64,000 nucleotides of DNA, taken from assembly GCF_000002985.6 (NCBI RefSeq), contig NC_003284.9, forward strand, positions 6,448,001-6,512,000, given 5' to 3'. Each line of letters starts with the position of its first letter. Position 1 is the first letter of the stretch. This document shows, in pieces, positions 3,811 to 61,100 of this stretch. The translations under genes and the position numbers were made by a program. This DNA is from Caenorhabditis elegans (taxonomy: Eukaryota; Nematoda; Chromadorea; Rhabditida; Rhabditidae). Under the pieces are notes generated by a model that saw only the letters and a list, made by a program, of their open reading frames with translations, had not been told where the DNA came from and made no database searches.

Positions 3811-6800
3811 TCAGTTCGGATGCGTCACCCCTGTTCTCACTGGAACACAGACACCTCTTGAAAGAACAAATCTGGCACAACACCACCCATTGAGACGTTT
3901 TACACGATGTGAGACTGAATTTCGGAAGTTATCAATTTAAATTTTTCAGTTCCTAGTTCTTACTCTGAGTTTGAAGAACACTGCGTTTTCCCCTGGTGGT
4001 TCCTTGTGCACATGGCTGAGTATTACAGACTCTTGTTTGTTTAGCTGATCTTCTGGAAAAAAAAACTGTTAAATTAATTAGGACTTTTTAAAGCTTACAA
4101 GCAATTCGTTGTACTTGTACATCTTTCTCTATACTGAGTACCACAAGAACCACAATTTTCAGAGCATCTTGTCCAACCGGACCACAGTAAAGAATAACTT
4201 CTTGGAGCAGCAACCCTGACAGGGGGTGGTCTTTGAGTGGGAGCTGTACCATCTAAAACTTGTCGTGGTTAGATTCAAAAATCACAAATAATAAACCTTC
4301 TCTATATCTGAGTACAAATTGTGAGTTCTGAGTAGCTTTTGAAATAATCAGAACACTGTTTCCTTTGCTAATTCGTTCACCAAGGACGGCTTTGCAACAC
4401 TGCCGGTATCCGGTTGCTTCATGACTATATTCTGCTTTCATCTGAAAACAGGAATGGTATTAAAATAACAAAAAAGGTTAAACAAAATACCTCAACAAAC
4501 TCTTCACATACTGGAGAACATCTATACATCACATAGGTGAGCTCAAAACGTACATTGCCGCCGTTTGCCTGAAATAAAAATTATTCGAAAAGTAGCAAGC
4601 CAGAATTTGATAAAATAGGAACAATTTTAAAAGCGTTCAATGTCGTTCAATTAAGTCGTTCAATAAAGTATCAGGGGCACAGAACTGTTAGAGGAAATAT
4701 GATAATCTTGAAAATTGAATAAATTAGATTTCGTTGCTGCTTTGAGAGTGTTTTGTCTTGAATATATTGTACTTACAACAAGCAAAGACAAACAAATTTG
4801 ATCTGAACATTTCAATATGATATAGAAAATGTCTTTTAGTTGTAATTATTATGTAAATTTGGTGCAAAATAATGATAAATTCAATGAAACTTTCAAACTG
4901 TATACTGAAATCAAAAAGGTGAAATGTTTCAAGATCGAAACTGATTGAAGTTTCTTTTTTTAATATACACCTACCGAAACAATTCTCCAATAACAGTCAG
5001 ATGATCCCGAATAGGAAATATTTCTCCATGAGTAATCTGCCCGTGGAAGTTCCACACCGCAATCTGAATTTCTTCACCGATGAAAATCCTCTATGGAAAA
5101 TGACTCACTAGAAGTTTGCAGTCGTTCACAATATGTTCCTTCCAGTCCTGTCGGACACGTACATTGCCCACAATTGTTGGGATCCGCGTAACCGCCGTGT
5201 TGGCAGTTTATCCGATTGGTGCAAATGTCTGAAGTGAAATAAACGTGGAAAAATTATTCCGTAAACTGACTAGAACAGAAAGCCGTATTGAGCAACTTAA
5301 GATCAAGGAATGAAGGTTCCACTCTGTTTCCAATAGTGTTAATGAATGCAGGATCTACTGGTTCAACGGTGTTCATTGTTGAAGATTTGGAAAAAGACTG
5401 AAAATGGTTAAATTCATACGGAACAACAATGTAAGAACACACTTTTGGTCCGTAATGCATAACCGATCCATAATCATAAGGTAAGCTGTATTCGTTAACT
5501 TCCGACCACGATCTCTTGTCGAATTGGCCTTCAAGACCATTTATAGCATTTTGGCGATTGATTCTGATAAACTGGCATGTTTTATTTTTCAATTTTCAAA
5601 ACTCACCTAACGTATGAATCTCGTTCAGGTCTCGCTTGTTCATGCCAAAATCCTAAAGCATGACCCACTTCATGAGTAATAATTCCGAGCTAAAATTACA
5701 CCATTTCCACTATTAAAAAAGTAATTTCCAGTAAATATATGAAAAAAATTTCTAACCGTTTCACATCCATCACCAATAGAAATTTCCTGAGGGCCTCCCA
5801 ATCTGCCAACACTAGAATAGCATCTAAAATCAATCAATATTTGCTGTTGTTATTCTTTTTCTAAAAACAAAACGGACCCTTCTCCTTTGCTAAAAACCAG
5901 GTAATCCGAGCCACCTCCATTGAGAGAAAAACGTATGCAAGTGTTTCTTTCATAGTGTCTTAAACCGTTTGTTATTTGAGATTGCCAGTTACCTGAAACA
6001 TGTTGATAATTTCAGATAAACATTATTTGTACATACCATCAGTATCTAAAAAACGATAAGGAATGTTTCGAGACCACGTTGTTCCGTTCAAATTCATTTT
6101 TCGTTTCACACGAAAGCCGTTTTGAGCTACTTTATTCATTTGTGAAACCGTTAAAGCCTGAAAAAAAATTATTCAGCATTTTTTAAACCTTCTAAACTAA
6201 CCATATCACTTTCAAACATAACTGCAGCAATTTTGCTATTTGCAGCCATTTCATTGTTGTAAATCCCACTGGACGGGATTACAGTGTTTATATCCTGCAT
6301 AGGAAATTTTATAAAAATATTTCAAAAAATGACTCACATATTGAGATCCTGATTTTCGATTAAAATAAGAACTCATAATCTGGATAACTTTATCATAACT
6401 TTCTCCGGGGCGCTGGAACGCAGCTGTATTCTGGTTCACACTATTGACAACCTGAATTCTAACGTATTTGCATATTTTTTCTATTAAACTAACCTTGTCT
6501 ATATCCTGACTAAACATAACTTGCGGCTGATCTTGTTGTGGTTCCGGCTCAGGCGGAGGAGGCGGTGGCGGGAGACCCTTAAACCTTTGATGAAAATTTG
6601 TAGTTTTAGGCTGGTTACCCATGGAGGTCTTCTATGCCATGGAGGTCTTCGCCAAGGTGGCGGTGGTCGATCCCATGGAGGTGGGGGTCCGAATGGCGGA
6701 GGACCTCGGTTTCTAAAACTTTGTTTTAATATGAAAACCTTGGCATTCTACACGTGCGAAAACGTGCTTTTACAAAGTTCTATTTATATATTCTTGGATT

Positions 6801-12000: not shown

Positions 12001-13641
12001 ACTGGAGGGCTTCTCGCGTCACTTGCCTTTTTGATCACTGGATTTGTTCAACTTCAAGTCAATGTAATTTCAAATAAAATTGTTCCATAATTTATTAATT
12101 CTTTACAGACTACTCTTCCAACTCTCCCGGAAGAAGGAGAAGCATCAATTAGTTTCTGGAACCAGTTTGAAACTGATTGCACCATTACCGTTATGTCTGG
12201 AATTCACAAGAGAGTTCTTCCCCATGACAAGGTTTGAGATTCGAATTTGATTCTTTTCACTTTTAACTTTCTCCTCCTAAGTTCTAAACGAAAGATCATG
12301 CCATTTTAAGTGCTGATAAGAAAAAAGGAAGTCAGAAAAAGTTATCGTAAAATTATTTAATTTATTGCCTTTGTCATGAATTACTATACGTATTTACACA
12401 ACAACGTTTCAGTATCTTCACGAAGATAAAAAGAACAAGTCTGGAATTTATAATCTTTTTACAACAAAATCCCCCGCAAAAGGTAATGGCGATTGGACTC
12501 TCACATATGACCTCAGCTATGACGGCGCTTGCGGAGATACATCAAAATTGGAGAAAACTGTTAAAGTGACTGCCAAGAGCAAGAAGATCATCTACGTTGG
12601 AGTCGGATCATTTGGATATTACCAAAACACAGCTAACACTGATAAGCCAACTGATGGAACTGGAGAATTCTCTATGGGGTAGGGGTGTTCATAACACGGA
12701 ACAATGGTTAAATAATATATAAATTCCAGAATTGTCACTGTATTCAATTCTTCATACGGAGGAAACTTTGCCATGTGCCGTCAAAATACAAGCGACTTTG
12801 ATGTTAACCATCCATGTAATCCAAGACATCCTGCTGACTTTTACTTCTGGGAAACCGATTATAATAGTCATACCGATGACAGAGATCAAAACGCTACAAT
12901 TACTGGATCTCTTAGTTCCCAACCGGCTGTAACTTACAAGCAGAAATCTGTAAAGCCAGGATATTGGCAGTTGTACTACCTTTTGAATACACCAAAAGAT
13001 GTAGACCGGCAGACTTACAACAAAACAGCAACACTCGTTGCTCCAACAAATTACGGTTTTCACAGAGTTAAGCAGGGAGGTGTGTTCATCTATGCATTGA
13101 CCGGAACATACGAAAATCCAAAGATCCACGAGCTTCAAATTGTACAGTCCAATAGTGTGTCGATTCTTTGGCAGATTCCACAAATCGTTGTCATCACGGC
13201 AGCAGAAATTTTGTTCTCAATTACCGGATACGAATTTGCATATTCTCAGGTAATGTTAATAGTTAAAATTTATAATTTATAATGCTATTCTAACTGTAAA
13301 TATTACAGTCTGCCCCATCAATGAAAGCTCTGGTACAAGCCCTCTGGCTCTTGACCACTGCTGCTGGAGATTCCATCATTGTAGTCATCACAATCCTTAA
13401 CTTATTTGAAAATATGGCCGTCGAATTCTTTGTCTATGCTGCTGCGATGTTTGTAGTTATTGCCATCTTTGCTCTTCTCTCCATTTTCTATTATACTTAC
13501 AATTATTATACAACTGATGAAGAGGACGGTGAAATTGGAGTTGATGATGAGGAAGAAATTGAGGATCACAATCCACGATATTCAATTGATAACAAAGGTT
13601 TCCATCCGGACGAAAAAGATACTTTCGATATGCATTTTTAA
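9033..13641 (+). CDS. pept-1: intestinal proton-coupled oligopeptide transporter PEPT-1
   Basis: A PTR2/SLC15 transporter that couples proton flow to uptake of di- and tripeptides across the apical gut membrane. Fourteen exons join in phase to 835 residues: 9033-9075, 9704-9859, 10286-10427, 10471-10560, 10774-10964, 11012-11089, 11137-11219, 11278-11533, 11783-11927, 11982-12063, 12109-12231, 12413-12678, 12730-13249, 13309-13641. The family motif ExxERFxYYG appears as EFCERFSYYGMR at the start of TM1, and the second PTR2 signature as FYFSINAGSM in TM5. About twelve membrane segments are visible, with the large N-glycosylatable extracellular loop (NSS, NTS, NAT, NKT sequons) between TM9 and TM10. 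The cytosolic C-terminus is acidic (DEEDGEIGVDDEEEIEDH). The start is supported by the short hydrophilic leader MGYSESRSESVSSKG known for this protein. Confidence 0.97.
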
Positions 13642-45800: not shown

Positions 45801-48800
45801 AATTTATAAATAACGTGAAATTTTTGATTTCAGGACAATATTCAGGTTTAACTAGGTTTTGTACGGAATTCCCAGTTTTTTTTCATACAAAAAATATCTG
45901 GAACTTTGATTCGCGTATGAAGAAAAAACATTCAAAAAACCGAGAATTCTAGCAGAAAAACGCAAAAATGTCAATAATAAGACATTATGGGGTGAAAAAA
46001 TTAGAACAAAAACCAATTAGTCTTTTTTAAACTTTTCAAGATTCAAAAAATTCAAAAATTTTAATTTAGATTTAAAATTTAAAATTTGAAAACATTTTAC
46101 TTTCATATATAGTCACTATCTTCAACTTGAACATCAAGCTTCAAGGCTGAGAAGAGTGTAGAATCTATATTAGTTTGAATGGCATAAAAGCCGAACTCTA
46201 TCTTTGAAAACTTCTCGCGTACTTTTCAAATATTTTCAGCACTATGCAACACCTGATTTGGTGAAAAAATGTTCAAAATGATAAAATAAATGTAAAAAAA
46301 ATTGTTTTTAATTTTGTTTCAAATATGAACTATATCGGCCTTCAAAATAAGCAATGTATGTACTTTGTAGTGAATTATTAAAATTACCACTGACCACGTC
46401 AACTCAATTGTTTAATAATATTCGGTGAGTCCTTAAAAATATATTCAAAATTTTCTCAACAAATCTTCGGAACTTATGAAGTGTTCTAACATTTAAAAAA
46501 AGTTTGTATAAAGTTTGCTCATATTTTTTTTTATTTGTAAAAAAACTTTGGATGTGTTTTTTAAACTAATTGATGAAATTTACAAAACAAGAAAAATATG
46601 AAATATCTGGTAATTAAACTAGTTTTGAAACGTTTTCTTATGAAAGTTGTCATATGTATTTATATTTAGAATGGCGACGTGTTTTTCTTCTTAAAATAAG
46701 CACCTTTGTCATGTATAGGTAGAAAATAATAACTATGGAGTTTGAGACACCTCAAGTAAAACTCCGAACCTTGTGTTTCCGGTGTTTTGGATCTTTGATA
46801 TATTCAAGAGTTGAGGTAAGAAAGGAGCAAGTCGAAAGCTTTAGCCAAACAATGAACATGATGAATCACCAGCGTTTTTTTTTGCTCTCCATCCACCTTT
46901 TCATTGTAGATGGCGTAGTAGTTTTAGCCATCGTTTCGGTTGGAAACAATTAATTTGTTTGTTATTTCTGGAAGATGTCAGGGAGGCAGAAACCGGAAGA
47001 AGGAAGAAAAGACTGAAATTCGATCGCATGAGAAATTCTAGTGCTTCAAAAATAGTTTTTTTTCCTTGACTCCCCTGCAATTCGTTTGCTCCGTGCTTGA
47101 GACCATGGCACATTGAAACAAGAAATGTTTAGTGTAAGATGTCAGAAAACCGGAAATTTGAATCTCGGCTACTAGAGTCAATGAAAATGTTGAACCAGGA
47201 AGAACTCTGTGATATTCGCAAATAGTAAAATCGATATCAGATAACTTTAAGGATGTTTGAAAAAATGGATGTCCTTAAGATTGAAGACGCGTTTTACTTA
47301 CAGAATTCTTTAATCAAACTGAAACAAAAATATGCGTTCAATTTTTTCTGTTGAAAAAAAAAACGTTCCAGAGGTTCAATTCTGAAGCAATTCTCGAAAG
47401 TACCCAAGAAATTTTCATTTTAGGAATCTGTATAATAAATGTATTTAGACTTAGTCGCCACTAACATTAATTAATCTTCAATTACATGCTGATTATTCAC
47501 ATGCTGAACTAAATCTAGCTATTACAATTTTAAAATTATAAAGTTCAAGCGAATCTTGATTTTAAAAGTGTGGAGAATATAAGAATGCTTCAAAATTCTG
47601 ATTTTTAAATTTTTCATGTTTGTATACCACGAACTTTTCAATCTATTGTTGTAAAAAAACTCACCGACCAATAATTGCGGAGTTCTTCACTTTTTCATTT
47701 TGCTTCACAATTTTTTACGATTACACATTCAAATGCATACTCCAAAAAAGGGGGAAAAACTAAAAGTGAGCTAGTAGGGATAAGAAACAAATGTCAATGA
47801 TGAAATGATGAAAAAAGTTAGGCTTTTCTTTATAAATTGGTGCAGTGATGCGAATCGGTAGGGCTTAATGAAACTTGAATTAATGACAGATAAATTGGTG
47901 GTCCGAGTGCTTTAAAGCATGTTTTATGTGGATTTTCTTAGGGCGCAACACAAACTTTTGCTTGCTCCTTCTGTTCGTGCTTTGTTTCGTTTGCCAGGAG
48001 CACCACAATCAAGATTAAAAAAATAACAAAGATCTTTCCATTACTCACTCTCACAAGCAATAAAAAGTAAGGAAAAAACAGGGATGCAAAGAAAAAATTG
48101 TTATCGTTGGATGTAAAGTGACTATGACTATCATATCAAATCTTTTTCCAGAAGCTGTTGTACATCTAATGCCGTCTGATAAGCTTTGCCTATTATTTTG
48201 GTTAATATTTTTTGAGATGATCTCCTCCTTCTTCATCATGCCAGTCGATTGCTAATCCACTGTTTGAAAAAGGAGAAAATAAAAATTGTCAACTAGGAAA
48301 CCTTTCTCTCGAAACCTCATTGGCACGTATTTCGGGGAAAATAATTGTAAAAGCGTCCAATGAACTCACAAAAATTAAAATGTTAAGATGGAATATTGCC
48401 AATGGGAAAAGTGAAACAATTAATTTCGTGAAACAATTTTGCATCAAACTTATTTCTCAAAATTCAAAATTTTCAACAACTTGTAATTGAAATTTTGATT
48501 ATGAACCGATGTTCCCGGTTAGCGAAAAAAGGGTGAAAAGTATTGAAAGCATAGGATTTCCATCTGAGCGACTGAGTTTGCCAAGGGGTTTATGAAAACA
48601 TCCCCATAGTTGTTACTCTCAATTATTACCACTCAGATTTTGTCTCAATCTCTTCTTCAAATTTGTTCTGAATATTAGTTTCCGCTAATTTAATTAAAAG
48701 CGCGGCAGATGTGTCAGCTTCAATTGAGAAACTGAAACCTATAAAAAGATGTGAGAAGAGTGGGGAAAAGTTGTCTAGGATAAAAGTGCTTCACAATTAT

Positions 48801-49077
48801 GAATTCATAGTGTTCAAAGATAGAACCTTCTGTAAGATTTATTTCATTAGTGTATAATAAAATCTGGAAATTGAAAGTCGGAAACAACATCTTAATAGAT
48901 TAACTGAGAAAATTGAAAGAAAAATACTGTTTTTGTAATATGAAAAAATGTGGATAGTAAAGACTGTCTGAGAAATCTAAAAAAACACGTGACTGTCATC
49001 AAAAAAGTGTACAATGAAAAAAAAGTTCATCAGATGCTACAATGTATAGATTATTGGCTCAAAATACCACATGGTGT
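36811..49077. other. 12 kb region without a supported gene
   Basis: I found no chain of exons with matching phases on either strand. The right half is minus-strand downstream of the Death-SEFIR gene, and the left half is upstream of gar-1, so it may contain gar-1 promoter elements or noncoding first exons. A GC-richer patch at about 37040-37180 could be a promoter. Another at about 39060-39400 has coding-like stretches and a hairpin. A repeat cluster lies at 38204-38640. At 44741-44781 is a near-perfect palindrome with arms of about 18 bases. The open frames of 126-149 codons in this region are hydrophobic or AT-biased and resemble no family. Confidence 0.5.
38204..38640. repeat. degenerate repeat cluster with ATTAGTGCGGC units
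   Basis: The cluster opens TACTGTATACTCTCTATTAG and then repeats ATTAGTGCGGC or ATTAGTGAGGC at about 38220, 38250, 38303, 38549, 38580 and 38616. The last unit is followed by an inverted copy (GCCGCACTATT). The opening bases match the inverted ends of the MITE at 63768-63869, so both probably derive from one family of DNA transposons. Confidence 0.6.
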
Positions 49078-51836
49078 TTATTGTGTAATACTGTAGTTCA
49101 TGGAATCCTCGTGATGATCATTTGCATTATTGTGTGATTGTTTCTTCACTTTTCCATCTCTCAGAAGACGCTTCACAAATGGTTCAAAACTTCCGGGGAA
49201 TGGATATTGATTCGTTACAGCTGCCCAGTACGTGTCCGTTACTTTTTCCACTTCCTATAATACACATTTCACACAGTGTAAACATTTTTGGAAGCCAGAG
49301 AGTTAGATGTCCAGCCATGTATTTTCAGAAAGATACTGCAATCTTTAATTAAAAACGAAGTTTTTAAATGTGATGTTAAGACAAATTAATCAAAAAATTT
49401 TGTAGAAGGTGGAGCAGCTATATTTGAGTCTTTATTTTATCAGACCAAAAATGATCACAAAATTCCGACGTTCGTAATGAGAAAACTCTAAAACTTCTCA
49501 TAAAAAATAACGGTAGTTCAGTTTTGGAAAAAAAACCCTATTTTCAGCTGAAATCTCAAATTTCGCCAACGTAATGAATTAGGCTCACATGAAATTTTAC
49601 TTTTGCAAGTTGTGGTTTTGTCGAGTATACAGAATTGCGATTTTAGATGAAAATACAATATTTTTTCAATAGTTTGAACCGCCATAACCTGTTTTTGAGA
49701 AAACTTCAGAACCTCATCACAAAATTGGGTACATTTGGTCTTAACTTTAATGAGCAATGTCCCCAATTTTGCTACTCCATCTTTGAAAATGAAAATAATT
49801 GCCTCAACATCGAGATATAATTTTGAATCAAAGATTTTCACTGCATCAGTTTTAAAAAAATTAACCTTTAACCTAACATTTAACCTAAAACCTTCTGGAT
49901 ACCAGAAATTACTCCTCTTTCAAAATACCAAACTCACCGACATAAGTACACATCTGCCTCGTAAATTGCGATTGCCATTCATGTGGAATTCTACATTCAA
50001 CTTATCACTGATTGATTTTCGGAACTGAGGCATTTTGCTTTTGCTGTTCGGTTTTGTGGCTTCTATGTAAGATTTATTGAAGCACACAACAATATGCGGA
50101 AACTGGAAAATGCAAAAAATTTTGTAATCAGTAATTTACAATCACAAACAACTTAGAAAAAGTTGAATAATAATAAAAAAAAACATTGCCCACGATTTCT
50201 GGAAAAATGAAAACTAAATCCGTAAAAAAAAAACACCAGAACAGTATTAGACTTACAGGGCTTTAAAGTCTATAATGTTCAAATCTTTCAAAAAACCAAA
50301 AAGTTGTTTCCGAAATGTTACACAATGAAATACATTTGAAAAATTGAAACTATTATCAAAAAATATGAATCGCACAGGCCACGTGGCTTTTGTTTTTTAT
50401 TTCATCTTTATTTACGCTCCTCCCACAATTTTATTTTCGGAGAGAATTTAAAAATTGAACTAAAAGTCAAACATGGGAGGAGCCTAAATAAAAAAGAAAT
50501 ATAATAAAAAAACAAAAGCCACGTGGCCTGTGCAATTGTTATTTTTTGATAATAATTTGATAACATGCCCCCGAAATGACTAGACTTATTGCCAACTCAC
50601 TAGATCATAATGCTTTTCCAGCTCCTGAAACACGTTTCCCCGATCATCCTTCTCCCACACCTTCACATCAAAAACTTCCAAGTCTTTTCCCTCCTTGCGT
50701 TCTTTTTCTAAAACATTTTTCAAATTGCATTTAAACCATTTGAAATCTTCCTTTTCTTTGGACGTAGTTTCATAGTGCAACAATAATATTTCTGAAACAA
50801 TAAATGTATTAGGTTCCAATTACTAAAACTTCAATTAAAACTTGCTTTTCCTAGCATTCATCGAATGTACAGGCTCCGCATATTCTGAAAATGTAGTTGT
50901 ACTTGCCATGGAGTCCGTGTCAGCAAATGCAAACATTGGTTCGGGAACTGTAATTACAATGTGCATGTATGAATTAGTTTTAATAATATCAGTCAAATTT
51001 AAAAAATTGTTACATGAAAATGATAACTCACCATTTTTCAGATAACTGTTGGAATCTATATACGATTTAAGCTTCACTAAAATATCGACTCGTTGAGCAT
51101 ATGCTAGAGCATTTACAAGTATTTGAGCGTGCATATCTTCAAATGGCTTCCACGATAGCTTGCTATTTCGTTCCCTTCCTCCTATCTCCTGAAAACAAAC
51201 TTTATAAACGTTGAAACTATTTTTGAAAGTTACCGAGTATTCAATGCCGCGCAAGAAACTTGAAACAATCTGCCATGATCCGGCCGAAACCGTTGTTGGG
51301 ACATCTAGATTTGCTAAAATCAAATCTCGTATTTCTTTCTTGAAGTTTTTGATTCTGTAATCGATTTTTTTACTTGACGTTTTTTATAGAATAGAATGAC
51401 ATACCGAATGTTTGCAGGTAGGGTAATTCGAACATCAGATACTAAAATTGGATCATCTATGTGAACGTCTTCTAGAATATCTTCAACGCATTTGTCGGAT
51501 AACTGAAATTTTCAAGATGTATATTTTGTTAACATTTTATTTGGAAATTTGAACAGGAGTATAAGAAACATTTTTTAATACTGTCACTTCGATCAAATGT
51601 TTTGAAAAATTGCTTAAAACTGACTCAAATATCAATGTGCCGACAAAAACAGTAATTCGGAACATTACAACTTTAAGTCGCATTTCGAGCAACTTGATAG
51701 TACACTTCAAATATATTCAATCAGTTTCTTTTTTACACAAAAATCTTTTGAACTACCAACTTACCACATCAACCTCCTCCCAATCATCGCCATCAAGATC
51801 CAACTCAATTGTTACGTCCATTTTCATCTTAGTCAT
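49078..51836 (-). CDS. Death-domain plus SEFIR-domain adaptor (ACT1-like, IL-17 pathway candidate)
   Basis: Eight exons join in phase to 341 residues: 51836-51765, 51502-51405, 51354-51234, 51188-51032, 50947-50903, 50791-50601, 50102-49938, 49254-49078. Residues ~25-150 read as a Death domain: helices with LPANIRIKNFKKEIRDLILA, then LSWKPFEDMHAQILVNALAY and a final AQRVDILVKLKSYIDSN. Residues ~165-300 read as a SEFIR domain: it opens KILLLHYETTSKEKEDFKWF, then FDVKVWEKDDRG, and HIVVCFNKSYIE in the third conserved strand. There is no signal peptide or membrane span, so it is a cytosolic adaptor. In worms this architecture is what I remember for the ACT1-like adaptor ACTL-1, which links IL-17 receptors to downstream signalling; I could not confirm that this locus is actl-1. 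The exon at 50947-50903 uses a GTACAA donor, chosen because it keeps the SEFIR frame. Confidence 0.78.
50351..50555. repeat. long fold-back palindrome in an intron of the SEFIR gene
   Basis: The two halves are near-complete inverse copies: TTATCAAAAAATA, then GCACAGGCCACGTGGCTTTT, and an inner part ending GCTCCTCCCA. The spacer is about 50 bases. It lies wholly within intron 50600-50103 and would form a long hairpin in the pre-mRNA. It is probably a MITE of the inverted-repeat type, with possible TA flanks. No coding content. Confidence 0.8.
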
Positions 51837-52294
51837 TTTTCGCTTATTACTGTATGTATAATTATTTATAAATATAGTAGACAATTTGGCATTAACCATT
51901 GGATGTTCAAACTAGTTTTTACTTAAAATGGATATTTCATTTATTATTTTTTATCACTCTAGAAATTTAGAGAAATTCTTACTGAAGGGTAACAAAACAA
52001 GTAGGCGTAAGTGAAAATTGGTAGACACAAAGTAAGGACACTTCAGTAAATGGGGGTGGGGAAATGGATTGACACGTATAAATTAAATAGTTTGACGAGT
52101 TTTTGACCAGATTGTGGAAAAAATTATACGGTTAATGAAGGAAACTAAGAAAGGTGAGTAGATGTTGAGATGCTAAAACGATCAAATGCAAAAACATAGT
52201 TTCAAGGAGAAGAAAAAGTACATTTTAATGTTGGTATTTTCGGCCCGCGAAGTTCAAAATTTTTTAATCAAAAATAAAATAGTTGTTTGAACGA
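51837..52294 (-). other. gap between cdf-1 and the SEFIR gene
   Basis: Both flanking genes run on the minus strand, with cdf-1 upstream. The 458-base gap is within reach of a worm operon, but no clear TTTCAG acceptor precedes the SEFIR-gene ATG; a CATACAG sits about 14 bases before it. Confidence 0.4.
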
Positions 52295-55200
52295 TTATTC
52301 GGTGATTTCATTTTCAGTTGACACACTGACTGGCTCCTCGATGCTTTTGCCATCAACAACTTTTTTAACCATTATTCTCATCGACTGCATGCAGGTATCC
52401 TGAATTTTTTTTTTATTTTCGATTTCGCACAAGATAAATAAAAGCTTACCTCAAAGGTGGGTTCAATAGTCGTTGAGTGTACTCCCAAGTCGTGGAAATA
52501 ATTTTTAATTTTATAAGCAGCTTCAGGAAAAACTGCTGGGTGACATATGTTCACGTGGGCGGCAGCAATGATTCGTTGCCCACACAACGTCCACACAGAC
52601 AGCTTTTCCACTTTGGATACACCAACAATGCTGCACAAATCTTTTTTCACCTTTTCGAGGTCGAGCCCTTCTGGGGTTTGCTTGAGCAGCTTTTCTCCCG
52701 ATGTTTTGACAAGAACCACTGCAGTGAAACCCATGATGGAGGCCAGGGAAATACTGAAAATTAACGGTCCTTTTTAAAATATTATACAATACAATTTTAT
52801 ACAAAAATACAATTTTAAAATACTGAATGGTGGAGTACAGCCAGAGAAGACTAAATTTAAAAAAAAAACTATTATGTGGTTTCATAATTACTAATAATAA
52901 CATAAATCTTTTCTAAAAACATTGAATGTTTTTCTTTTAAATGTTTTTCTTGCGAGTCAAAAAGTTAGGAAAACTGATCTTGAGCCACTTTCCGAGAAAT
53001 CCAAATCAAAGTTCGAGCCCCTGTAATGCTGGAAAATGGATAACAACCGAATCGTGGTATAAAAACTGAAAAAAATTGTTTTTGATCCTCGACTTTAGAA
53101 AAAATTGACAAAAAGAGTTTTCACTGTTTTCCGACTCGCAGTTTTCCAAAATAAAAGTTGACATTTTTTAAATGATTTTTGGTGGTTTCAGCACTATATG
53201 ATTATAAGTGATTTTAAGATTGGTTTGTTTTGAAGCTTTTCGGCCAAATTTTATAAATATTACCTTAAAATTGGATCCAAATAAGCGGCAATTTTCCATG
53301 TTGGCAAAAAGTATACAAATCCGGCAGAAATCATGACGATCACAGATCCGAAGGCATCCGACAATAAATGAAGCCAAACTCCGTGAATGTTCACATTTTT
53401 GTCTTCTACAAACATTTCGCTACACTATTTTGATTTAAAACATTTTCGAATGAAAACTAGAGTTTTCTCAAAAAAAAAACTCACTTTTCTGTTCTGTCTT
53501 TTGAGCACTTTTATCGAGATTGTTAGAAGACACATTGAGAACTTCACTGGCCATGTGTGTTCCATATGGTGTCATTTGACGATCGACCGTCGCGATGATG
53601 GTATTCTGACTATTAACTCCAGAAAGACGACGTTCAATAATGTCATTGGAGTTGTCATCATTATCCAGTAGTCGCACATTGGCGTCGGAGTTTGCCATCG
53701 CAGAAGCACTTCGAAATTTTCCATTCAATCTAGTGTGATCCGGCTCTTCTTCACCATTGCAATCACTTTTCCCATCATGAGAGTGTCCATGGCCATTTGC
53801 ATGACTGTGACCATGCCCATCATTTTTCTTAGTCTTCTTGTTATTGTGACTGTGACCATGACTTCCTCCGTGACTGTGACCATGACTTCCGCCTCCATGA
53901 CTGTGACCGTGACCACTCAAGTTGAACATACCGAATAAGTTGATTAGCAATCCGATGAATCCGATGACAAGTACTTGTAGAGGGTGTGTAATCATGTGTA
54001 CATTGATGATACGTCCAACTGCCTCTTGAAACACGAGAACACATACCGTACACATAAAGATTCCGTTGAAGAATCCTCCAAGTGTTTCAGCACGGACCCA
54101 GCCGTATCCGAGGCGCGTGGAAGGGCGAGTAGCGATCTGACGAATAATTGGCTTATAATTTTGCATTATTGTCGCTACAAGACAAAAAGCAATGTTTCTC
54201 TGACTTTTGCATAAAATTGGCAGCGACTATATATTTAAATTTTGGGTATTTATGGGTTTTGTTTTATTTTTAGACTTGACTTTATAAAGGTCAAAATTTC
54301 AAAAAAAATCACGTTTCTACTTGGAAACTTTCAAAGTTTTTCGAGGCAACACAACCCATACTGAATTTCATACTTCTCAAAATTCAATGATCAGTATTGC
54401 ACTCTCAATTAGTTTTATATTCTTAAAATGCTTATCTTATTAATACAATAAACTATTAATACTTTTTTTTCAAAAAAAAATTAATAGAATGCTTCTTTGA
54501 ACTCCCCTGAATTGATCAAAACGAACTCAACCTACTTTAATGCACGTGAATGCCACAATGAGCGCCATCACGTCGGCTGCCATATGGTAACTGTCAGCAA
54601 GCATTGCAATAGATGAACAGACGACTCCCGTGATGAATTCAAGTGCGCAGAATATCACAGTCATCCCAATTTGAATAATAAGGCTTCTGCTAACACCTCT
54701 GAACATTGCAAATAATGCTTTAAAAGTTTACATTCGATGTAAAAACTCACTTAACAGATTCCGACTTGCCAATAGGCTCTCCTTTAAGCCTGAGATCATG
54801 TTCAAGAGTATGTGTACCGTGTGAACAATTATCGATAACCTAAAAGAACGATTACTAATTATTTTGTTTTGTGCTAGTTAGGCATTTTTCTACCGTAAAT
54901 TCTAAAACGTCTGATACATCGCTGATAGTTTCTGTGGATTGGGATTTGATCATTTCCATCTCATATATTGACACCATACGATCAATCAAATGATTATTGT
55001 TTTGGTTTGTACTGATCACCTTAAACTACTACTACAGCGGCTTAGAAAACAGTAGTAAAAAATTAGCGAGAAGAGAAAACTGTTAAATTATAAAAGTACG
55101 ATTCGTTGAGGTAACAGATACAACTGCAATCGCTGAATGAGTACACCCGATAACAAAGAGGCAAAGTAATATACGGCTAGACTTTTCTCGCTTCAAAAAA

Positions 55201-58143: not shown

Positions 58144-61100
58144 ATGAGCTCTCAACAACGGGCGGTATTCAAAAATTCATCAGGAGGTCGGACACACACA
58201 CATTCTAAGCTCACCATGCATATTCTATGTGTCATTATTCTTGTTCATGTTTCACAGATAGACTCTCATAAGGCCATGTTCTCGCCAGAGTTCGAAAATA
58301 CTACAGCTGATCCAAATTCTATTAGGACATTAAATAATATTCTAGAGTCTATAAATGAAAGTAAGTTTTGACAAAACATATTTACACTTTGCAGATGTTT
58401 AATAATGGGACTTTTTTTGAAGTAAACAATAAATTAAATTTTAGCGATTTGCTAAACCTTTGACGGAAAACTTTCAAAAAAATATTGGCTCACGTTTACG
58501 TTTAGTTTTTGTTGCAAAGTTTGAGAAAACCCTTAAATACGGCTAAAATGGAAATTTGCTGTAACATTTTAAAGCTGTTTTTTTTAGCTTAATGCAATTT
58601 TTTCAAAAAGCATTCCTAACATTTATCACAATTTTATAAAATGAAACCCTGGACTACGGAATTATGTATTTCTTTGCGGTTTGAAAAAATAATTTCAAAA
58701 ATTTCAACGTAGATTCATAATTTGTTCAGAAGTTGCTCATCCGCCTCAAACTTCCCTAACGAGCGACTATGGAGATGCATATACTGTAAGTATGAATATA
58801 TTCATCTTAAAATAATAGTTCACTGAAAATTAGTGATCAAATTTTTCCAGCTCAGCAATGAAAAACACTTTTCGCTTTCCGAAATGAAAGGAAGAACTTT
58901 AAAAATGGTGGTTCCCGCAATTGAGCCGCCTTATGTAAACTATGTGAACTTTTCCGACGCAGCAGTTACTGATAAGGGTTATGGCCCTGGAGTTGTCATG
59001 GAGATACTTAAAGAAATAGGAAAACGTCTAAATTTAACATATGAGGTTTGTGGGAGCATAAGAAATTCAAACTGAAGAGCTTCAAATTTTTAAAGATATT
59101 ACCGGCATTGGGAAGTACTTGGGGTGAATATCTCAATGGATCATGGACAGGAGCATTTGGGCAATTAGTTAGAGGGGTAAGAAAAAAGCTAAAAATATTA
59201 GCTTTACTCAAGGTATCTTAAATTCAAATTCATTTCAGGAAGTAGATTTGCTCGCAGGAGGTGCAATAATGGAGTATGATCGAAGTGTGATTGCGGATTT
59301 AACGTATCCTTTTCAATTCGAACCAACAGGAATAATGATAAGGTAATCAGGGGTCGGCGGAAAAAGGCAAATTTTGGCAATTGGCGACTTCGTCAAGTAC
59401 CAGTTTTTGAAATTTTAGGCACTTCAAACCGAACTATTGTTCAAAAATAACAATTTTAATTTTTTTCAACGTATCCCGTGAATGTTTTTTGGAGAAAAGG
59501 CAATACAGTTTAAAATTAAAATGATCTTCTTGCAAGAAAATAAATTTCTACACTCAAAAATGTATAGAAACCGGCATATTTATATTTTTTGATAATTCTC
59601 TTTTCTAGCGACTGCTTTTATTTTTATAGACTAGTGCCGAAATTGTCAAAAATTCAAGTTTTTTCAGGTCTCCAGAAAAATATGAAGATGATACCCTTCT
59701 TATTGTTACTGAGCCTTTCTCATGGGAAGTGTGGGTGATAACTGCAGCTGTGATTTTAATTTCTGGTGTCATTTTTCTTGTGATGACAAATATTATTCGT
59801 AAGGTTTACGAAGAAATGACAGTGACGCCATTCGAATCAATTTGGGTATTTTTCTCGATTTTCGTTCAACAAGGTATGCGTGAAAACAATTAATTTACAT
59901 TGGCGCTGAATAGAAAAAAGTTGTTTCCAGGGCTACCAGAACAACCACGAAGCTGGAGTTGTCGAGTTCTCGTTGCATTGTGGTGGTTGGCAAGCATTAC
60001 ACTCAGTGCCACATTCACGGGAAGTCTGGTGGCTCTATTCGCCGTTGACAAAACTAATGTGCCATTTCAAAGTGAGCAATCAGCAATGTCGAACTTTGTG
60101 TTAATGATTATTGCAGACATTGATCAACTTGTGAGATTAGTGAAACAGGGGAAATTTGAAATTGTAATGGACGAAAATTCCTTCACTCGTACTGAAATGA
60201 TTGCAGTTAGTTTTACACAATTTTTTCGAAAAAAAAAACAAAATAAAAATAAATTCAGCGTTCAAAACTTCCTGTTTACCGAGATTTATGGCATGAGATG
60301 ATAGTGAATCATAAAGTGAAATACGTGAATGGAATAGCTAGAGGTAAATATTTCTACTTATTAAAAAAATAGTGAAGTGTGTGGTTATTGTTTTTGCTTA
60401 AATGAACTAACACTGAACTCATAAGTTGAATTTTATTATGAATTCTTGCAACTATTTTATGGCAAATGAATAATTGTTGACAGGGCCAAATTATGTCAGC
60501 TTCTTATCGCAGCGGTCGGGATATATCTAGGTTTTTTTTGCGAATTTTTCAACCATCATGGAACATCTTTTGATTAGTTTATGAGAACTTTCATTATTAA
60601 ATACTGTTGCAGCCAATTTTAATTTGTTTAAGTTAATAATGCAACAAGCTCTACTAAATATGACCTATTACTTGTAAGATTTGTGTCTTACTTTGTTACG
60701 CTTCGTTATATAAGGAAAGGAAAATACAGACAGTATAGTTTTAAAAAAAGCAATACGCTCTACCCGTATTTTGTATTTTTTCTAGTTTCGTAGAAATGTT
60801 TCTTATCTTTTTGTGGAATTTTTTAATATTAACTGTTTTACTAACTGGTAGGACGGAATATGTTGTACAGACTGAGAATACCACGTGTGATATTCCATTT
60901 AAAACTCTGTAATTCCTATTTTCAGGTGTTGCATTTGTTCGAGCAAATCCAGGATATGCACTTCTTGGACCAATGGCCACACTGAACTTTTACGCGTATT
61001 CCGATTGTAAAGTGATACTCTTTAATGACGGAATTTTGCCTGTTTACCTTTCCATTCCTCTTGTGAAAAACTCAATTTATTCGCCGTATTTCTCAACAAA

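Follow-up and report, generated by a model that had tools for sequence, protein, structure and literature searches.

A probable ACT1-type SEFIR adaptor gene with a diverged Death-like region, very probably actl-1, on the X chromosome of Caenorhabditis elegans

Does a chain of small exons on the X chromosome of Caenorhabditis elegans encode a signaling adaptor with a Death domain and a SEFIR domain and, if so, which adaptor would this be? An earlier note on this DNA had read eight in-phase exons whose product would carry Death-like helices followed by SEFIR strands and no membrane span, and had proposed actl-1 as the gene's identity. Here, we revisited the locus within the 64,000-nucleotide stretch that contains it (hereafter, the window). 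With considerable confidence, we consider the gene to be actl-1, which codes for the C. elegans orthologue of the IL-17 receptor adaptor ACT1. Its product would be a soluble protein of 360 or 341 residues, in which a very diverged N-terminal Death-like domain (residues ~58–144) is joined by a short linker to an ACT1-type SEFIR domain at the C-terminus (residues ~184–335 in the 360-residue form).

The gene occupies window positions 51836–49078 on the minus strand (X:6,497,078–6,499,836), where eight exons can be joined in a single frame from an ATG to a TAA (Table 1). In its longer version, the coding sequence comprises 1,083 nt, which translate into 360 residues plus a stop. All seven introns of this longer model end in AG; six of them start with GT and one, intron 5, with GC. 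The model frame is the sole open frame in each of the eight exons (the stop in exon 8 being the terminal one), and its codon score is the best of the three frames in seven exons and tied in exon 5. None of 2,000 shuffles reached the codon score of the coding sequence, a score that is to be read as rough since the underlying codon model was trained on just two worm frames. The exon chain of the earlier note was thereby reproduced, with its 341 residues recovered exactly if exon 5 is ended at the GT donor, and the motifs on which that reading had been built—KILLLHYE, VKVWEKDD, and HIVVCFNKSYIE—are all found in the eight-exon product. The highest mean hydropathy over 19 residues is 0.97, and the protein is accordingly predicted to lack a membrane span; the two receptor-like genes described below reach 3.39 and 2.43.

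Table 1 Exons of the gene and the two forms of intron 5 (window coordinates)
Feature	Position	Strand	Description
Exon 1, aa 1–24	51765–51836	−	Begins with the ATG at 51836 and encodes an acidic N-terminal segment; open frame, donor gtaagt
Exon 2, aa 25–57	51405–51502	−	Acceptor tttcag, donor gtatgt
Exon 3, aa 57–97	51234–51354	−	First part of the Death-like region; MyD88-like LDVPTTVSAGSW...GIEYS; acceptor ttacag, donor gtaact; MyD88 alignment
Exon 4, aa 98–150	51032–51188	−	Remainder of the Death-like region, including HAQILVNALAYAQRVDILVKL; acceptor tttcag, donor gtgagt; MyD88 alignment
Exon 5, linker, aa 150–184 (360-residue form)	50846–50947	−	102 nt with the GC donor; 45 nt (50903–50947) with the GT donor
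Intron 5, 360-residue form	50792–50845	−	GC–AG, gcaagt ... tttcag, 54 nt
Intron 5, 341-residue form	50792–50902	−	GT–AG, 111 nt
Exon 6, aa 184–247	50601–50791	−	First part of the SEFIR-like domain, including ILLLHYE and VKVWEKDD; ACT1 alignment from aa 226
Exon 7, aa 248–302	49938–50102	−	Core of the SEFIR-like domain (FPHIVVCFNKSYIEA ... LNVEFHMNGNRNLRGRCVLMS); ACT1 alignment
Exon 8, aa 303–360 + stop	49078–49254	−	End of the SEFIR-like domain (aa 335), then polar tail; end of the ACT1 alignment at RLLRD/RLLRE; TAA ends at 49078

Several further features lie within and around the gene, a neighborhood that we take to be cosmid C15B12. An open reading frame of 182 aa (50835–51383, minus strand) runs through exons 3–5 with introns 3 and 4 all open, and retention of the 45-nt or the 84-nt intron within it would preserve the frame. 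Intron 6 harbors a palindromic element (50347–50558) whose 52-nt arms are 92% complementary and 108 nt apart. A 191-nt query taken from it gave 43 genome matches, a number that includes its own locus and counts some loci on both strands; the element resembles a small transposable element of the inverted-repeat kind, with no apparent consequence for the protein. Immediately upstream of the gene, and likewise on the minus strand, lies a zinc-transporter-like gene (52295–54226; Cation_efflux 5.8e-12, ZT_dimer 3.9e-06, HGHSH repeats), presumably cdf-1 (C15B12.7). Farther away are fragments of a PTR2 peptide transporter (12716–13282; 25.8 bits, slightly below the cut-off of 27), an astacin protease (5254–5595; 5.9e-21), and a ligand-gated ion channel (59894–60301; 8.9e-12). 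A search of positions 47500–53500 against Rfam returned no match at gathering scores.

The 3′ end of exon 5 can be placed at either of two donors, gcaagt (exon end 50846; 360 residues) or gtacaa (exon end 50903; 341 residues); no other GT or GC donor in this stretch preserves the frame with an intron of at least 30 nt. The two products are 19 linker residues apart and identical in their domains. With a GC content of 0.386, the disputed 57 nt (50846–50902) equal the exons taken together (0.386), as against 0.226–0.309 in the other six introns, from which 67 of 1,299 overlapping 57-nt segments reached the same value; the 111-nt version of intron 5 would have a GC content of 0.324 and thus exceed these introns. 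Because the disputed segment is exon-like in this respect, we lean slightly toward the longer exon 5, a choice that the sequence does not settle. It is nevertheless quite possible that the 341-residue form is the main product, in which case all introns would be GT–AG, the linker would be 19 residues shorter, and the domains and the mechanism proposed below would be unchanged. The usual donor consensus is gtaagt, from which gtacaa deviates at three places and gcaagt at its C only. This comparison, together with the GC content, speaks for the longer form; yet GC donors are uncommon in worms, the shorter form is stop-free and in frame and has no need of one, and two reading frames tie for the codon score in exon 5.

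To ask whether the predicted domains are recognizable, the earlier note had suggested searches with the Pfam models SEFIR (PF08357; cut-off 23 bits) and Death (PF00531; cut-off 22.6 bits). Neither gave a match up to E 10, be it with the whole protein, with its SEFIR and Death halves, or with tighter pieces, in searches where HMMER filters remove most weak matches. When the genome was searched, the SEFIR model matched three exons at two loci, and the Death model gave six matches; none of these lies within the window. A PDB sequence search with the gene product gave nothing useful. The weak matches that did appear—to PNK3P (0.076 with the whole protein, 0.016 with the SEFIR half), Arg_decarbox_C (0.048, Death half), NF005560 (0.082), and an Affimer in the PDB (6yr8; 0.089)—were rejected as chance matches from Pfam, NCBIfam, and PDB because they are short and fall under the curated cut-offs where one exists.

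Direct comparison with ACT1 gave a different picture of the C-terminal half. In a local alignment, worm residues 226–335 (exons 6–8) share 27 of 109 identical positions, and 55 positive ones, with the SEFIR domain of ACT1 (TRAF3IP2; sequence of PDB chain 9ot1_E). The BLOSUM62 score of 66 compares with a shuffle mean of 29.8 and was attained by two of 10,000 shuffles (one of 10,000 with BLOSUM45 and likewise with PAM250), while the best ACT1 score among 258 other reading frames of the window was 46. This comparison was made after the likeness had been spotted by eye, and the three scoring matrices agree on it. Used as a phmmer query, ACT1 placed the gene second of 5,002 sequences, with one shuffle ranking higher. 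The alignment passes through the join of exons 7 and 8 ungapped, and the join of exons 6 and 7 lies two residues from a one-residue gap. It was from the joined exons only that a strong colinear match was obtained: taken singly, exons 6, 7, and 8 had scores reached by 999, 203, and 21 of 5,000 shuffles, and their best spots on ACT1 (119–146, 87–106, and 123–146, respectively) are not colinear. An exon-by-exon search of the whole genome with ACT1 found no match.

A general description of the SEFIR family, on the other hand, missed the gene. A seven-member SEFIR profile ranked it 354th of 5,002 (950th when ACT1 was removed from the profile), whereas ACT1 itself, when left out, came first of 5,001; hhalign with the general SEFIR profile returned a probability of 0.2. 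For this reason, the SEFIR claim rests on the pairwise comparison with ACT1. The two worm regions recognized by the Pfam SEFIR model (9.4e-43 and 4e-13), which belong to receptor-like genes on chromosomes II and IV, scored 31 and 31 against ACT1, values reached by 490 and 441 of 2,000 shuffles (with an ACT1 sequence that agrees with 9ot1_E at 153 of 155 letters, and a chromosome IV piece of only 106 residues). Against the chromosome II receptor, our gene scored 44 (11 of 2,000 shuffles), but this alignment joins different parts of the domain out of register; against the chromosome IV receptor, it scored 30 (471 of 2,000 shuffles), which is no match. When the SEFIR regions of all three worm genes were aligned with MAFFT, the result was poor and was set aside. 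Given that the SEFIR domains of receptors from the same worm score no better than shuffles, the likeness is, at the sequence level, to ACT1 in particular and not to receptor SEFIRs. We therefore take the C-terminal half as a putative, strongly diverged ACT1-type SEFIR domain. The earlier note would have given up its reading if neither SEFIR nor Death were hit; Pfam indeed hit neither, but since the pairwise alignment to ACT1 picks up what the Pfam model misses, we judge this too strict for SEFIR.

The N-terminal half is harder to classify. The Death domain of MyD88 aligns colinearly with residues 73–144 (58–144 with PAM250), with 20 of 70 aligned residues identical under BLOSUM62. Both end motifs of the region are in register, and the stretch GIEYSEI/DFEYLEI crosses the join of exons 3 and 4 without a gap. 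The score depends on the matrix, being reached by 711 of 5,000 shuffles with BLOSUM62, 125 with BLOSUM45, and 27 with PAM250. Of the five best-scoring frames among the 258 others in the window, three lay above the 30 points of our gene and two were level with it. With MyD88 as the phmmer query, the gene ranked 508th of 5,002, and a whole-genome search with MyD88 gave no match. A four-member Death profile ranked the region 38th of 5,001, aligning in two pieces (65–87 and 117–137), whereas all four true Death domains, each left out in turn as a control, ranked first. AlphaFold2, run without an alignment on the contiguous translation of 51033–51353 (minus strand; aa 58–149 including 15 residues from intron 3), modeled five helices at a pLDDT of 56, the Death fold being a bundle of six.

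Taken for itself, a Death domain at residues ~58–144 is thus plausible but unproven: the MyD88 colinearity and the profile rank speak for it, the missing Pfam match and the BLOSUM62 shuffles against it. We consider it rather unlikely, though deserving of attention, that the protein is an ACT1-type SEFIR adaptor whose N-terminal helices form no Death domain and which would recruit its partners via other helical surfaces or short motifs. The missing Pfam match, a MyD88 score near chance by BLOSUM62 and phmmer, and a profile rank below that of all four true Death domains speak for this reading; against it stand the colinearity with MyD88 over some seventy residues, ungapped across a splice junction, and the report by Flynn et al. 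(2020, PMC7190641) that most lineages outside the amniotes have a Death domain in their ACT1 orthologues.

Which SEFIR adaptor would this be? C. elegans has a published ACT1 orthologue, ACTL-1, that acts downstream of ILCR-1/ILCR-2 (Flynn et al. 2020, PMC7190641). Across the genome (100,286,401 bases in 7 contigs), we found no second copy of the gene, as all seven matches at E ≤ 10 among the best candidates scored were its own exons. The SEFIR model matched two other loci only, both of which encode membrane spans (the hydropathy maxima given above) and are, we infer, ilcr-1 and ilcr-2. Since the DNA is from C. elegans and no paralogue was found, the locus is, by elimination, very probably actl-1, and the identity offered by the earlier note—like its view of the protein as an ACT1-like adaptor, which the alignment to the ACT1 SEFIR supports—is upheld on these grounds.

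The covered parts of PMC7190641 give neither a sequence nor a locus for actl-1, and the passages that we covered of two papers mentioning cosmid C15B12 do not name it. This would fit a SEFIR-adaptor-like gene other than actl-1, which we nonetheless regard as very improbable: the genome holds no other copy that we could find, the remaining SEFIR-model matches come from the two loci with membrane spans, and the published ACT1 orthologue must have some locus. It is likewise very improbable that exons 1–5 and exons 6–8 belong to separate transcripts and no Death–SEFIR protein is made; the reading frame is the sole support for the joins between exons 4, 5, and 6, but all eight exons share a single frame, exon 6 has no methionine (the next in-frame one being residue 271, in exon 7), and a Death domain and a SEFIR domain in one protein are the published ACT1 layout (PMC7190641).

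If the locus is actl-1, what is known of the pathway suggests how its product might work. ACTL-1 forms a complex with PIK-1/IRAK, MALT-1, and NFKI-1, for which co-precipitations have been published, MALT-1 binds ACTL-1 directly in vitro, and an excess of NFKI-1 or MALT-1 rescues actl-1 mutants (PMC7190641). Flynn et al. describe the contact between receptors and ACTL-1 as 'probably via their SEFIR domains' and call for further study of the assembly hypothesis (PMC7190641). Most likely, ACTL-1 would dock on IL-17 receptors SEFIR to SEFIR, and its Death-like domain would then gather PIK-1 and MALT-1—a Myddosome-like scheme, except that SEFIR would stand where the Myddosome has TIR. The complex itself has been described in print; the division of its contacts among individual domains is a proposal.

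The linker between the two domains might add a layer of control. Exon 5 can be skipped without loss of the frame (326 residues), and it is conceivable, if improbable, that the exon serves as a linker-length switch through use of its GT donor, use of its GC donor, or skipping (341, 360, or 326 residues). Were this the case, the distance between the Death-like and SEFIR domains would depend on the switch, and so would how well receptor-bound SEFIR assemblies seed the assembly of Death domains; it would amount to control of neuronal IL-17 responsiveness by splicing.

How unusual, then, is the architecture? Flynn et al. (2020, PMC7190641) state that in most lineages the ACT1 orthologue has a Death domain, which was lost in amniotes, and that the Death–SEFIR arrangement of non-amniote ACT1 resembles the Death–TIR arrangement of MyD88. 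This statement concerns ACT1 orthologues in general, and in the parts of the paper that we covered, we saw none on a Death domain in ACTL-1 itself. The earlier note's notion of an unusual invertebrate design that could merge ACT1-like and MyD88-like roles is not supported, as the layout is published for most non-amniote ACT1 proteins along with the comparison to MyD88; of its interpretation, the ACT1-like adaptor and the identity with actl-1 stand, and the Death domain is plausible. Since the adaptor, its Death and SEFIR architecture, and the analogy to MyD88 are already in print, the finding is genuine without being novel. As a rediscovery, it shows that an adaptor missed by Pfam can be recovered by reading exons unaided.

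Among known systems, the closest is C. elegans ACTL-1 as described by Flynn et al. (PMC7190641): it comes from the same species, is an ACT1-like soluble adaptor, and is in all likelihood the product of this very gene, with no difference seen in the covered parts of the paper. A placozoan protein that also combines SEFIR and Death domains was likened in 2019 to CIKS/CIKSL and MyD88 (PMC6321704); it belongs to a different phylum, and our comparison with it is by published description only. The receptor-like genes of C. elegans (contigs C2 and C4), by inference encoding ILCR-1 and ILCR-2 upstream in the same pathway, share a SEFIR region with our gene but differ in their membrane spans and clear Pfam SEFIR matches.

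With MyD88, the worm protein shares an N-terminal Death-like region, a C-terminal domain of the TIR/SEFIR group, and motifs in register. Unlike MyD88, it would have an ACT1-like SEFIR in place of a TIR domain (Pfam TIR gave no match to the protein, to be read with the caution that SEFIR was likewise missed by Pfam here), and its similarity to the MyD88 Death domain is weak; moreover, ACTL-1 serves IL-17 receptors (PMC7190641).

Human ACT1 (TRAF3IP2, CIKS; 9ot1_E) is, like the worm protein, a soluble adaptor, and the two are comparable over the SEFIR-like region aligned above. The PDB entry 9ot1 holds IL-17 receptor B/A chains together with 15 chains of TRAF3IP2 and may offer a template for a worm SEFIR assembly. 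TRAF6-binding motifs are a feature of mammalian ACT1; the worm protein has one match to the TRAF6-type pattern PxExx[FYWHDE] (PFEDMH at 112, within the Death-like region). Amniote ACT1, by contrast with the worm protein's putative Death-like domain, is reported to have lost its Death domain (PMC7190641). Worm ACTL-1 probably retains the Death-plus-SEFIR form of ACT1 reportedly lost in amniotes, which would link IL-17 receptors to IRAK and MALT1.
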